40,479 nt of DNA. Source: Anaerolineae bacterium. GTDB lineage: Bacteria; Chloroflexota; Anaerolineae; Aggregatilineales; Phototrophicaceae. The stretch's first letter is position 1; every line of letters starts with the position of its first letter. The notes under the pieces are model-generated. The model worked only from the letters and a program-made list of their open reading frames with translations, was not told the origin of the DNA and ran no database searches. The position numbers and the translations under genes were made by a program. This document shows, piece by piece, positions 32,596-38,678 of this stretch. The DNA is taken from the NCBI GenBank assembly GCA_016788625.1, contig JAEUQX010000068.1, positions 1 through 40,479 of the forward strand, in the 5' to 3' direction.

Positions 32596-32748
32596 CAAAA
32601 CCCCTCGTTGTGTGAGAATCGGATATGCATTTGCACGTTGCCAGCAAGCGCAGGCATCTATGCTGTGTAAACAAGATTACGACAGGCCAAGACTGCCCTT
32701 TGATTCTACAAGGGTGTGTCAAAAGCAGAGGAATTGAGAATGGGGAAA

Positions 32749-32772
32749 GGGGCGCAACACGCGCTGCGCCCC
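32749..32772 (-). terminator. Terminator of the DUF1573-like gene
   Basis: On the minus strand GGGGCGCA (32772-32765) pairs with TGCGCCCC (32756-32749), followed by TTTCCCC. It lies 15 bases past the TAA at 32787, not past the UGA at 32967, which agrees with the coding region ending at the TAA. Confidence 0.65.
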
Positions 32773-32786
32773 CGATGATCTGCGGC

Positions 32787-33257
32787 TTATGCCCCCCAGA
32801 ACGAGAGCGCGGTGAGTTGAATCTCTGGCTGCGTGGGATCGTTGGTCAGCACATGCACGCGGAACTCGTGCTGGCCGCCCATGCCTTCATGCATCGTGTA
32901 CTGCAAGGAAACGGTCGCTTCTTCTCCGGGCTTGATGGTCGTCGAACTGACGACCGCGCGGGGCGGTCAGCAGCCCTGCATTAGTTCGACGCGCGGCTCG
33001 CCCAGGATGACCAGGTCCTGATCACCCACATTGCGGACGCGGAAGATGCTCTCCACCGCCCGTTCGAAACGCACGCCGCCATGATCAATGCTGGTCTGGT
33101 CGAACTCGGCGCGCGGCGCACCGCTGACTTGCGGCACGAACGGCGTCGAACGCCCCCCACTGATCACGGCGATGATGGCAACGACCACCGCCGCGATACC
33201 CACCAGGATGGCGGGCAGCAGCCAGGTTGGGCGAGACCGTGATTTTGTTTTGCTCAA
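32787..33257 (-). CDS. Membrane-anchored DUF1573-like protein with in-frame UGA, candidate selenoprotein
   Basis: Read with UGA (32969-32967) as selenocysteine, this is a 156-residue protein. A basic start (SKTKSRSRP) and a membrane helix (about 11-33, TWLLPAILVGIAAVVVAIIA) lead to an outer beta-sandwich domain: SIDHGGVRFERAVESIFRVR, NVGDQDLVILGEPRVELMQG, Cys96, UGA at 97, PPRAVVSSTTIKPGEEATVS. It ends with HVLTNDPTQPEIQLTALSFW and TAA. The TNDP ending is typical of DUF1573 and lies only after the UGA, so the frame past it is clearly coding. From memory of the family the site is normally Cys-Cys; that is not checked here. Start is TTG at 33257 behind AAGGGAG. A c-type cytochrome gene lies 68 bases upstream. 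Confidence 0.75.
32937..32955 (-). promoter_or_regulatory. SECIS-like hairpin downstream of the UGA
   Basis: On the minus strand GGTCGTC (32955-32949) and GACGACC (32943-32937) pair perfectly around the loop AGTTC. Eleven bases separate the UGA from the stem and 18 from the loop. Bacterial SECIS elements lie just after the UGA, with 16-37 bases to the loop and a G in one of its first two positions; both hold here. A shorter competing hairpin, GACCGC with GCGGTC, is also possible. Confidence 0.55.
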
Positions 33258-33325
33258 CGTGTTCTCCCTTCTGAACTATCGGGCAGCAGTGTATCGTGCC
33301 CGTGCAAAAACCCCGTCAGATTGCG

Positions 33326-33925
33326 CTACTGGCCGCCGAAACGCCGCGCTTCTTCCTCGGTGACATATCGCTGGCGCACGCGCTGTTCGGGCGTCCACAA
33401 TGTTTTGATGTAGGCGATGACATGCAGCATCTGCTCCTCGGTCAGCACCGCGCCAAACGAGGGCATCTGATAGAAGCGTTTGGGGTCTGCGAAGCCGCCT
33501 TCACGGAGGTAGCGCAGCAGCAGCACGTCGCTGTGATGCCAGGTGTGCCCGGTTTCGTTATGCGGCGGCGCGCCGTAACGTCCGGTGCTATCGGGCTGCA
33601 GCGGGGCTGCGGGGAACTGGCCTTCGGCATTCACACCATGACAGGCCGCGCAGTACTGCTGGTAGACCGCTTCACCCTGTGCGATGTGTGTCTCGTCAAA
33701 ATACTGGTCAAAGATGCGGATGCGCCCGTCGTCATCTGCCATCTCCTGGCGGATGTGGTCGAGCATCGCGTTCGGTTCCGGCTCGGTGGGGGTGTTGGCC
33801 GCGACGAGCAGAATCAGCGCGGAGCAGACACAGAGGGTCGTGAGCAGGGGAATACCCAGACAGGGCACGCGCCATTGATGATTCACAACACGTAACAACC
33901 TCAACAATACAGTAAACGATGCCAT
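33326..33925 (-). CDS. Membrane-anchored class I c-type cytochrome
   Basis: A 199-residue mono-heme cytochrome c. A hydrophobic N-terminal segment (CLGIPLLTTLCVCSALILLV) would anchor or export it. The heme site is CAACH in YQQYCAACHGVNAEGQFPAA, and the likely Met ligand is in FYQMPSFGAVLTEEQML, giving the usual class I layout (ALTEEQ-type helix, then VIAYIKTLW). It probably carries electrons outside the membrane. The start is uncertain: ATG 33925 is used here, GTG 33886 with GAGG upstream and GTG 33970 are alternatives. The DUF1573-like gene follows after 68 bases, so the two may work together in extracytoplasmic redox chemistry. Confidence 0.88.
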   Translation of the reverse strand: MASFTVLLRLLRVVNHQWRVPCLGIPLLTTLCVCSALILLVAANTPTEPEPNAMLDHIRQEMADDDGRIRIFDQYFDETHIAQGEAVYQQYCAACHGVNAEGQFPAAPLQPDSTGRYGAPPHNETGHTWHHSDVLLLRYLREGGFADPKRFYQMPSFGAVLTEEQMLHVIAYIKTLWTPEQRVRQRYVTEEEARRFGGQ

Positions 33926-34022
33926 CAATCCTAATTGTGAATGAGCGTAACGTGAAACCACGCCGCTCACAACGCGCTAAATGGCGGGTTTTCGTGGCGT
34001 GGACGGCGTGGGCACGGCGCAG

Positions 34023-35558: not shown

Positions 35559-37319
35559 CTATTCTGAAGAGCGAGCGCAGCGGAAACCCAGATTGATGTT
35601 CCTGAGGTCGGAGGGGTTCCTACCCCGAGAGGCGGCGCGCAAGTTGACAGCGTAGGCGCTGCTCCACGAGCCACCGCGCAGTATATTTATGATATTTGTT
35701 CTGTTAATATCTTCGCGCCCGTCGGCAGCATTATAGGGATAGTCCACATACTGTGATCCCACCCACTCCCACAAATTGCCGCTCATATCCAGTGCGCCCA
35801 CCCATGACGCGCCCGCCGGAATACTGCCCACTTCCGCCGTGCCCTGCGAGTCAGACCGATTCCACACTGCTTTCGCCCCATCCCATTCATCGCCCCAGGG
35901 ATACTTCAGTCCGTCCGGCCCACGCACGGTATACTCCCATTCGCGTTCACTCGGCAGCCGCACGCCCCGTAACGCGCAGAAATCACGCGCTTCGATCCAG
36001 GTAATTCGTTCAACAGGGCGCTGATCCCCTGTGAAATTACTGCTGCGCTCAGCCACCCCACCGAAACGCGCAAACTGTGCTTGCGTCACTTCGGTCTGGT
36101 CGATCCAGAACGGCGCATCGAAGCACTGCTGGCCGCCATCCGGCACGCCATGCGTCCACTGACTGCCATCCCAATAGTAAGCGTCTGGGTCACTTCCCAT
36201 ATTGAAGCAGCCTGCCGGAACGAGCATCATTGGCACACCGTCGAAATCCTGCTCGAACGGCGTCCAGTCTGCATTGCGGGTGACGGGCGTCGTGGCGAGC
36301 GCAAGGGCATCTTGTAAGGTAATAGGGCGGAAAATGTTCAGCAGGCGCGGCGCGATCACAATCGCAACCACTGCCAGCATCCCCAGCAACACTAGGATAC
36401 TCAGGATACGTCTGTAATTCAGCGCGGGCTTGGGCGGCGCAGAGCGGAGGCGTTCTGCAATCCGCATCCGCTGCACGACCTCTTGCAGGTCGTCGGGGAG
36501 GTAGCCGGGGTCAATCTGGCCGATCTCATCGACAGCCGCCAAGATGCGCTCAAACGGGTCTTTCAATTTGATCATCTGACGCACGAATTCGAACTGGAAA
36601 TCAGCCACTTCGCGGCGGCGGCGCTGCTCTTCTTCCGCCCGCAGCCGTTCTTGCAGTTCCGCCTCGCGTTCCTCCAGCCGGAAGAACGCCGGGATGGGCT
36701 GACCGGAGGCGCGGATGCGCGCCAGCCAGATCAACGCTTCGGGCAGGTTGTCGTCGCTCCGCGCGGCCGTGAAGCGCTCAATCATCGCTGTCACGCTCAG
36801 CCGCTCGCTCTGAGGGACTGTGGTCGGCGCGGGAGGCGGGATGCTGCGCCCCGGCGTGCGGACGGCCTGCTCGAAGCCGTTCATGATTCCGTCGATCTTC
36901 AGCAGCAGGTCACTGCCTTCAGAGACGAAGACGGCGTTGAGCTTGGCGATGGGCTTGAGCGCATCCGGCAGGGCAGCGGAGTCCGGCATCGTCGCGCCGC
37001 GTATGCAAATCGGCGCGATCACCTTGCCCAGCCGCAGCGCCTCTTCCAGTTCCACCCGCACATAATCCGGCTCGCCTTTGGCGGCTTTCTCGTGCATCAG
37101 TTCCAGCCAGCGTGGGCCGATAATCATGGCGATCACATCCGCCTCGGCCACCTTCTGCACGATGAAGGCCTCGAAGTTGGTGAAATAGGGGATGCTGTCG
37201 AAGTCCATGAACACATTCTCGCGCCCGTAGCGGTGCATGAAATGCGTCCGCAGCAGTTCGACGAAGATGCGTTCATCGGCGCGGCGATAATTGACGAAGA
37301 CGCGCAGCGATTGTGCCAT
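35559..37319 (-). CDS. TIR-domain protein with membrane helix and formylglycine-enzyme (SUMF1) C-terminal domain
   Basis: A 586-residue protein. A TIR domain covers about 1-135 (LRVFVNYRRADERIFVELLR, VFMDFDSIPYFTNF, with a Glu in DYVRVELEEAL at the usual catalytic place of TIR NAD-cleaving enzymes). A helical, Glu/Arg-rich middle follows, then a membrane helix at about 301-328 (ILSILVLLGMLAVVAIVIAP). The C-terminal domain (about 345-584) is of the FGE-sulfatase type, with MMLVPAGCFNMGSDPD, QTEVTQAQFARF, RLPSEREWEYTVRGPDGLKY, GNLWEWVGSQ and RGGSW. Such fusions look like signalling or conflict proteins, with the outer C-lectin-like fold as sensor. It is divergent from another TIR gene, and lower in GC than its surroundings. 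Confidence 0.9.
   Translation of the reverse strand: MAQSLRVFVNYRRADERIFVELLRTHFMHRYGRENVFMDFDSIPYFTNFEAFIVQKVAEADVIAMIIGPRWLELMHEKAAKGEPDYVRVELEEALRLGKVIAPICIRGATMPDSAALPDALKPIAKLNAVFVSEGSDLLLKIDGIMNGFEQAVRTPGRSIPPPAPTTVPQSERLSVTAMIERFTAARSDDNLPEALIWLARIRASGQPIPAFFRLEEREAELQERLRAEEEQRRRREVADFQFEFVRQMIKLKDPFERILAAVDEIGQIDPGYLPDDLQEVVQRMRIAERLRSAPPKPALNYRRILSILVLLGMLAVVAIVIAPRLLNIFRPITLQDALALATTPVTRNADWTPFEQDFDGVPMMLVPAGCFNMGSDPDAYYWDGSQWTHGVPDGGQQCFDAPFWIDQTEVTQAQFARFGGVAERSSNFTGDQRPVERITWIEARDFCALRGVRLPSEREWEYTVRGPDGLKYPWGDEWDGAKAVWNRSDSQGTAEVGSIPAGASWVGALDMSGNLWEWVGSQYVDYPYNAADGREDINRTNIINILRGGSWSSAYAVNLRAASRGRNPSDLRNINLGFRCARSSE
35580..35666 (-). other. Segment resembling a DGR variable region
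   Basis: The last 30 codons of the SUMF1-type domain, from the Trp of RGGSW to GFR, occupy the place where diversity-generating retroelements rewrite C-lectin-type proteins. Many of its codons (AGC, AGC, GCC, TAC, GTC, AAC, CTC, AAC, ATC) are what adenine mutagenesis of AAC codons would give. No template repeat or reverse transcriptase was found in the window, so this is only a resemblance. Confidence 0.3.
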
Positions 37320-37434: not shown

Positions 37435-37466
37435 GTGTGCAGTGTCGCTTTACCGGGATGCGCCGC

Positions 37467-38678
37467 ATGGCTCACGTCTTCATCTCGTATGCACCGGAAA
37501 ACTTCGAGTATGCCGAGGAAGTGCAGCGCCGCCTGGAACGCGACGGCATCTCTGTCTGGGTCGATACCACGCGCCCGGAGCAGGTCTCCGATGGCAAGGA
37601 CTGGCGGCAGGAACTGGACGACGCCATCCGTGCGGCCTTCGCGCTGCTGGTGATCAGCACGCCGCAGGGCAGCGCCTTCGACTATGTGGCCTACGAATGG
37701 ACGTTCGCGCTGGGCGTGGGCGTGCGCGTCATCCCGCTGCTGTTCGAACCGGTGACGCTCCCGCCCCGGCTGCGCGGCCTGCCCGCCCTGGACTGCACCA
37801 ACCCGGCGCGGCGTCCCTGGGTGGCGCTGCTGCGGCTGCTGCGCGAAGTGCAGTCGGAACACGAGTTCAACCGCCAGGCCGCGCGCACGCCGGATTCGCT
37901 GCGCCCGATGATGGCGGCCTTCCAGAGCGACGACCCCGCCGACCTGCGCACCGCGCTCGCCAGCATCGAGAAGATGGATGACTGGGCAGCACGCGAAACA
38001 TTGGTCAACATCATGCGCCACCCCGCGCAGAATGTGCGTACCGCCGCCGCGCTGGCGCTGGCGCGCTCCGGCGATTCGCGTACCGTGCCCACGCTGATGG
38101 AGGCGCTGCTGCGCGGCGACAACCGCGAAATTCAGACGGCAGCACTGCGCGCGTTGATCGAGGTCAACCCCGATAAGATGCTGGAGATCGTGCTGGACGC
38201 GCTCAAGGATGACCAGAAGCGCACGCGCGTCTCCGCCGAACTGGTCGAGCAGTCGATCCCCAGCCATGTCTTCCTGAGTTACAGCCGCCGCGATACCGCG
38301 ATGATGTTCCGCCTGCGCGACGACATGCAGGAAGAACGCATCCTGGTCTGGACGGACGAAGCGCTGACGCCCGGCGATCCCTCGTGGCAAGTGGCGATTG
38401 AGAACGCCATCGAGAGCGCGGGCTGTGTCGTCGTGCTGTTCTCGCCGGACGCCAAGAAGTCGCCCTGGGTGCGCGCCGAGCTGGAATACGCGCGCGTGCA
38501 CAACATCCAGATTTTCCCACTGCTGGCCGCTGGCAGCGAAGCCGACGCCCTGCCCCTCGGTTACACCGGGATGCAGTTCCTCGACGTTCGTAACGAGACG
38601 CTCTACAAAGCCGGCATCCCGCGCCTGATCACGCACTTGCAGCGTTTCCTGCGACGGGTGGCGACGAACAGCGCCTGA
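37467..38678 (+). CDS. TIR-HEAT-TIR protein
   Basis: A 403-residue protein with a TIR domain at each end. TIR 1 (about 1-115) starts HVFISYAPENFEYAEEVQRR and has WVDTTRPEQVSDGKDW and the Glu of YVAYEWTFAL. A HEAT-like helical region lies at about 150-260 (AQNVRTAAALALARSGDSRT, IQTAALRALIEVNPDKML). TIR 2 (about 265-400) starts HVFLSYSRRDTAMMFRLRDD, with WTDEALTPGDPSWQ and Glu in SPWVRAELEYA. Both Glu residues sit at the usual catalytic site of NAD-cleaving TIRs, so enzymatic activity is possible. Two TIRs in one chain could self-associate. It is divergent from the TIR-SUMF1 gene; the 147-base gap holds both promoters. Role in defence or signalling is inferred. Confidence 0.9.
   Translation: MAHVFISYAPENFEYAEEVQRRLERDGISVWVDTTRPEQVSDGKDWRQELDDAIRAAFALLVISTPQGSAFDYVAYEWTFALGVGVRVIPLLFEPVTLPPRLRGLPALDCTNPARRPWVALLRLLREVQSEHEFNRQAARTPDSLRPMMAAFQSDDPADLRTALASIEKMDDWAARETLVNIMRHPAQNVRTAAALALARSGDSRTVPTLMEALLRGDNREIQTAALRALIEVNPDKMLEIVLDALKDDQKRTRVSAELVEQSIPSHVFLSYSRRDTAMMFRLRDDMQEERILVWTDEALTPGDPSWQVAIENAIESAGCVVVLFSPDAKKSPWVRAELEYARVHNIQIFPLLAAGSEADALPLGYTGMQFLDVRNETLYKAGIPRLITHLQRFLRRVATNSA

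Follow-up and report, generated by a model that had tools for sequence, protein, structure and literature searches.

We found that a minus-strand gene in the window, the whole 40,479-nt stretch of the Anaerolineae bacterium contig JAEUQX010000068.1 analyzed here, almost certainly encodes a selenoprotein. The assignment rests on the presence of the Sec machinery in the genome, a TGA held in a single column among homologues, a covarying hairpin behind it, locked codons under that hairpin, and Cys forms that lack the hairpin. In the mechanism we propose, SelB and tRNA-Sec would insert selenocysteine at the UGA of position 97, guided by the hairpin that starts 11 nt further on. The product is probably a membrane-anchored, external copper-binding or redox protein.

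A DUF1573-type gene runs through an in-frame TGA

The reading frame passes from the TGC of residue 96 to a TGA at residue 97 and then stays open for 59 codons up to a TAA at 32789-32787 (Table 1). Thus, the TGA directly after a Cys codon and the open frame beyond it lie exactly where the first-pass annotation had placed them. The Pfam family DUF1573 (PF07610) matches residues 51-145 with 40 bits against a gathering cut-off of 26.1 (E 4e-10), and this match spans the TGA. The HYDIN-like Ig family PF22544 also scored over the Pfam cut-off, with a match that likewise spans the TGA.

The AlphaFold model (mean pLDDT 94.7) has a helix at residues 13-33 followed by an Ig-like domain. The best solved structural match in a fold search was the Porphyromonas gingivalis structure 2qsv (Z 13.4 over 105 residues), with ASH/PapD-like domains ranking after it. 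Because the matches are confined to generic Ig/ASH/PapD-like domains and to 2qsv, which is uncharacterised, the fold gives no function. The product is predicted to be held in the membrane by its N-terminal helix, with the Ig-like domain outside. The earlier proposal that an extracytoplasmic Cys-Sec pair lies next to a c-type cytochrome therefore holds as a prediction, given this helix and the cytochrome c gene directly upstream.

An alignment of 55 sequences (A1) has ten invariant columns: G60, N76, G95, C96, Sec/Cys97, P98, G111, M122, M126, and H130. In the model, the GCU loop comes after strand 89-94, and the loop with the two methionines and the histidine comes after strand 113-120. Judged from this strand order, the two would be the CD and EF loops of an Ig topology, which are predicted to lie at one end of the domain.

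Table 1. Coordinates of the selenoprotein gene and of the elements in and around it.
Feature	Position	Strand	Details or basis
Selenoprotein gene, N-anchored DUF1573/ASH-like protein	32787..33257	(-)	156 codons + TAA; TTG start
In-frame TGA, residue 97 (Sec)	32967..32969	(-)	preceded by TGC for Cys96 at 32972-32970
Shine-Dalgarno-like AGAAGGGAG (ribosome-binding site)	33264..33272	(-)	5' of TTG 33257
Signal anchor/TM helix, residues 13-33	33159..33221	(-)	AlphaFold model
Exported Ig-like (ASH/PapD-like) domain, residues 45-156	32790..33125	(-)	AlphaFold model and fold search
MHEGMGGQH stretch with invariant Met122, Met126, His130	32868..32894	(-)	alignment A1, 55 sequences
bSECIS hairpin, 7-bp stem GGTCGTC/GACGACC, loop AGTTC	32937..32955	(-)	fold and homologue comparison
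GC-rich hairpin past TAA, possible terminator	~32748..32773	(-)	fold -21.9 kcal/mol; three T after
c-type cytochrome (CAACH)	33326..33970	(-)	68 bp upstream of selenoprotein gene, same strand

Homologues keep the TGA in one column

We searched about 800 Chloroflexota genomes, including 396 of the class and a draw from the phylum. Most strong matches among the 396 class genomes carry exactly one TGA, and the phylum draw added more members beyond the class. After removal of copies, at least 68 distinct homologues have exactly one TGA, which always lies in the context GC[TGA]P. These homologues diverge to about 27% mutual identity and still have the TGA in one column. Among 74 distinct members scored, the codon for residue 97 was TGA in 68, TGC or TGT in 6, and nothing else; a further locus, L141, is a seventh Cys form. 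Thus, the first-pass annotation, which had supposed that Sec replaces a Cys of relatives and had called for a look at residue 97 in homologues, was borne out. On a tree of 75 rows, built from few columns and weakly resolved, Sec is the common state, and Cys needs at least two to three changes.

Outside Chloroflexota, the family was probed by a close-relative contig scan alone, whose near matches all came from Chloroflexi/Anaerolineae MAGs (L050-L056; 68-76% identity). A plasmid search gave no match. We also observed two genomes in which Sec and Cys forms coexist: G129, with adjacent copies (L043/L077), and G247 (L141). In G213, a second copy (L128, G213:C1:4125077-4125528) is broken by a frameshift about 20 codons past the TGA.

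A covarying hairpin follows the TGA

The first-pass annotation had described a perfect 7-bp hairpin that begins 11 nt past the TGA and whose loop, AGTTC, is separated from the TGA by 18 nt; we recovered this element exactly, with an MFE of -10.7 kcal/mol. Published limits for bSECIS elements are a stem of 4-16 bp, a loop of 3-9 nt with a G in its first two positions, a distance of 16-37 nt from the UGA, and an MFE of -7.5 or lower (PMC13188914). The element falls within all of them, so that its spacing is, as proposed, of the bacterial SECIS type, and compensatory changes add to this. An Rfam search of the whole window returned nothing near a gathering score.

An equivalent hairpin is present in all of the at least 68 distinct TGA homologues; in L089 and L090, which have one codon more, it is shifted by 3 nt. 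Across 41 distinct sequences, the 7-bp helix is paired in 91.6% of cells, and 42 cells carry a double change. Stems such as GTCGTC/GACGAC, ACCATC/GATGGT, GTCGTA/TACGAC, and GCCGTC/GACGGC are interchangeable, while the [A/G]GT of the loop is nearly constant. The covariation of the hairpin was 0.448 as compared to 0.237 for shuffled letters, and none of 500 shuffles, which ignore relatedness, reached as high a value. When the pairing partner was slid by one or two columns, covariation was at most 0.074, and when it was slid by three, at most 0.269.

The codons under the hairpin are frozen (GTC in 35/35 and in 39/44, GGT in 36/37, TCG in 34/37, and ACG in 41/41), while those elsewhere are mixed. 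By this comparison, the hairpin codons are constrained more than the protein requires. No such hairpin was found in any of the seven Cys forms, even in L044, where Val-Ser-Ser stays.

Past the TAA, the first-pass annotation had placed the terminator of the gene. A strong hairpin does lie there; however, its T run is poor, and a terminator scan called no terminator at this position.

These results bear on whether the TGA could be a true stop, with the frame beyond it a decayed or unrelated remnant left by a pseudogene or a sequencing error. Nothing but the view from a single genome speaks for such a stop. However, the at least 68 distinct homologues share the TGA codon and conserve the protein beyond it, which is the opposite of the refuting case named by the first-pass annotation, that of relatives with a plain stop and an unconserved downstream region. 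The covarying hairpin and the Pfam match across the TGA also speak against a stop. We therefore regard this reading as extremely improbable; pseudogene, error, and true stop are all ruled out by the homologues.

The source genome carries the Sec machinery

The first-pass annotation had also suggested a search of the genome for selA, selB, selD, and a selC tRNA, and all four were found. The source genome (G000) is an assembly of 744 contigs that is 94% complete. Its selA scored 448.5 bits and is truncated by a contig end, and its selB is split, with the N part over the cut-off on contig C326 and the C part on contig C384. The tRNA-Sec (selC) reached 70.8 bits against a gathering score of 47 and has a TCA anticodon. 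Because selA, selB, selD, and tRNA-Sec are all present, the organism probably uses Sec. The selD gene (L018:1501-2436, minus strand) is itself a TGA-containing selenoprotein gene with a CAGUASKLGP stretch.

Among the genomes with the TGA form, 50 of 54 have selA, the remaining four being draft assemblies. It was found in two of five Cys-only genomes and is absent from one of them that is a single contig (G326). However, selA is also present in 17 of 20 family members without the gene. Because it is so common there, selA presence alone is weak evidence; its co-occurrence with the gene agrees with Sec use and is not strong by itself.

Copper and cytochrome genes lie near many loci

In the window, the cytochrome c gene and the selenoprotein gene are probably in one operon, and in many relatives a homologue of the cytochrome likewise lies ahead of the gene. 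Of 48 loci, 32 have a cupredoxin/cytochrome c cluster nearby, often less than 170 bp upstream and co-directional, and many of its members carry a CuA motif (CxxxCxxxHxxM) together with CAACH. Near the same 48 loci, we found OmpR regulators (24), Cu-type P-ATPases with CPC or CPH (23), PCYCGC proteins (19), polyferredoxins (14), and multicopper oxidases (8), all counted as single-linkage clusters, uncorrected for relatedness and without a background rate. Pfam was consulted for the cytochrome/cupredoxin, PCYCGC, and polyferredoxin clusters, while the ATPase, OmpR, and oxidase labels come from motifs and sequence reading. OmpR regulators are too common to weigh much.

Within 7.5 kb of the gene in the window itself, there are no copper-related clusters, and cytochrome c is the sole shared neighbor. 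Two other loci (L056 and L067) have none of the shared neighbors. Because three Cys-form loci (L078, L079, and L081) have the same neighbors, the Sec and Cys forms probably share one function. Elsewhere in the window, two translations (35559-37319, minus strand, and 37437-38678, plus strand) were read by eye as TIR-domain-like, one with a formylglycine-enzyme-like tail and the other with HEAT-like repeats and a second TIR.

Possible functions of the Cys-Sec site

A role in copper handling appears somewhat more probable than all else, because Cys96, Met122, Met126, and His130 are invariant and copper genes lie near many loci. The Gly-Cys96-Sec97-Pro of the CD loop and Met122, Met126, and His130 of the EF loop would share one end of the domain, and a single, putative Cu(I)-binding site is most likely made up of these five invariant soft donors. 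In that case, the anchored protein could carry copper to, or help to assemble, exported copper or heme proteins, for instance the CuA-cytochrome c proteins whose genes are its neighbors in relatives; alternatively, it may have a role in copper tolerance. We speculate that selenium might give tighter Cu(I) binding or, through a Cys-Sec bond, easier redox release. A counterpoint is the distant CU relative L138, which is without the Met/His set. A literature search for DUF1573 together with copper found nothing on function among the papers listed.

A rather doubtful alternative is that the selenoprotein uses Cys-Sec as a redox centre, forming a selenenylsulfide and reducing extracellular disulfides, CuA sites, or heme-binding cysteines with electrons drawn from its polyferredoxin and cytochrome neighbors. 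The vicinal pair itself, the Cys in the place of Sec in relatives, and the presence of cytochrome c and polyferredoxin genes nearby would all suit such chemistry, and the GCUG tail of mammalian thioredoxin reductase does form a selenenylsulfide. One review describes redox reactions as the presumed role of most known prokaryotic selenoproteins (PMC9312934). However, a redox role leaves the invariant Met122, Met126, and His130 and the nearby copper-transport genes unexplained, and the fold is Ig-like, not thioredoxin-like. It is improbable that a different soft metal or metalloid, such as mercury, silver, or arsenic, is bound at the Sec site for resistance. CPH-type ATPases can also export Ag, which would be in keeping with this, as would the many metal-related selenoproteins on record, several of them with a CU motif. 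The latter include the MerB-like SaoL, SaoC, and HgcA (PMC13188914). Yet the neighbors are CuA, multicopper oxidase, and PCYCGC genes, and no mer or ars genes are among the shared neighbor clusters.

Within the copper-handling reading, we tentatively put forward a more specific proposal, to which we give less than an even chance. The family may represent an undescribed exported site in which Sec itself directly coordinates Cu(I) (Cys-Sec-Met-Met-His in an Ig-like domain) and which would metallate or protect CuA-cytochrome c across Chloroflexota; Sec would be the usual state, and Cys its replacement.

These findings add a widespread and well-supported selenoprotein subfamily, whose genes are truncated at the TGA when read with the ordinary code. 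Moreover, the natural Sec/Cys pairs in related species and the genomes with both forms offer a direct way to test what selenium contributes to such a copper or redox site outside the cell.

Comparison with known selenoproteins

The first-pass annotation knew of no described selenoprotein in this family. This did not hold, as a DUF1573 selenoprotein with the motif UGC, OS_HP2, has already been described and is credited to Zhang and Gladyshev 2007 in two reviews (PMC9312934, PMC13188914). In a search of these two reviews of prokaryotic selenoproteins, Chloroflexi did not appear. Because both bear an OS_HP name and resemble DUF1573, we infer that the NCBIfam model for OS_HP2, NF041425, represents the UGC entry of the reviews. 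The window protein scored 33.6 bits on this model, below the cut-off of 100, and is outscored by ordinary DUF1573 proteins with CGC from its class, which reach up to 76.6 bits. None of 199 class genomes had an over-cut-off match. Membership in OS_HP2 was thus rejected by score and also by motif, which is GCU and not UGC.

Other relatives were also seen to carry TGA codons. A second, canonical Chloroflexota DUF1573 (L137, G169:C364:800-2600) has the known UGC motif (KSTUGCTAS) and its own hairpin past the TGA. Two divergent DUF1573 relatives, L138 with SCUP and no Met/Met/His and L139 with GGCTU, each have an in-frame TGA and a hairpin, and possibly represent further Sec variants.

Several known families resemble the window protein in part. 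SaoL, SaoC, HgcA, and KCU-star (PMC13188914) also have a vicinal Cys-Sec pair, and several are metal-related; however, they belong to other families, and the likeness is in the motif only. The CYCXC/PCYCGC family (PF13798, OS_HP4) includes known UxxC selenoproteins (PMC13188914) and is the frequent neighbor noted above; however, it is unrelated in sequence to the window protein, and every neighbor copy found carries Cys. Canonical DUF1573 proteins (PF07610) share the domain match, and 2qsv is the best solved structural match. They differ in having no Sec, a CGC or CxC motif instead of a vicinal C-U, and, in L129-L136, no MxxxMxxxH.

Counted by eye from a shared Pro-Gly anchor, the canonical motif reads S-C-G-C-T and the UGC form of L137 reads S-T-U-G-C-T. 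Against the canonical motif, Cys96 takes the first position, Sec97 that of the Gly, and Pro98 that of the second Cys. OS_HP2 and the window family both have a domain of the DUF1573 type whose cysteine-motif loop contains Sec. In OS_HP2, Sec stands for the first Cys of CGC, while the window family has Cys there, and its Sec aligns with the Gly; it also differs in having invariant Met/Met/His downstream of Sec. Thus, the Sec position and the low NF041425 score mark the window family, at the level of sequence, as a distinct variant of the DUF1573 selenoproteins, with a vicinal Cys-Sec pair and with Sec one residue further on.
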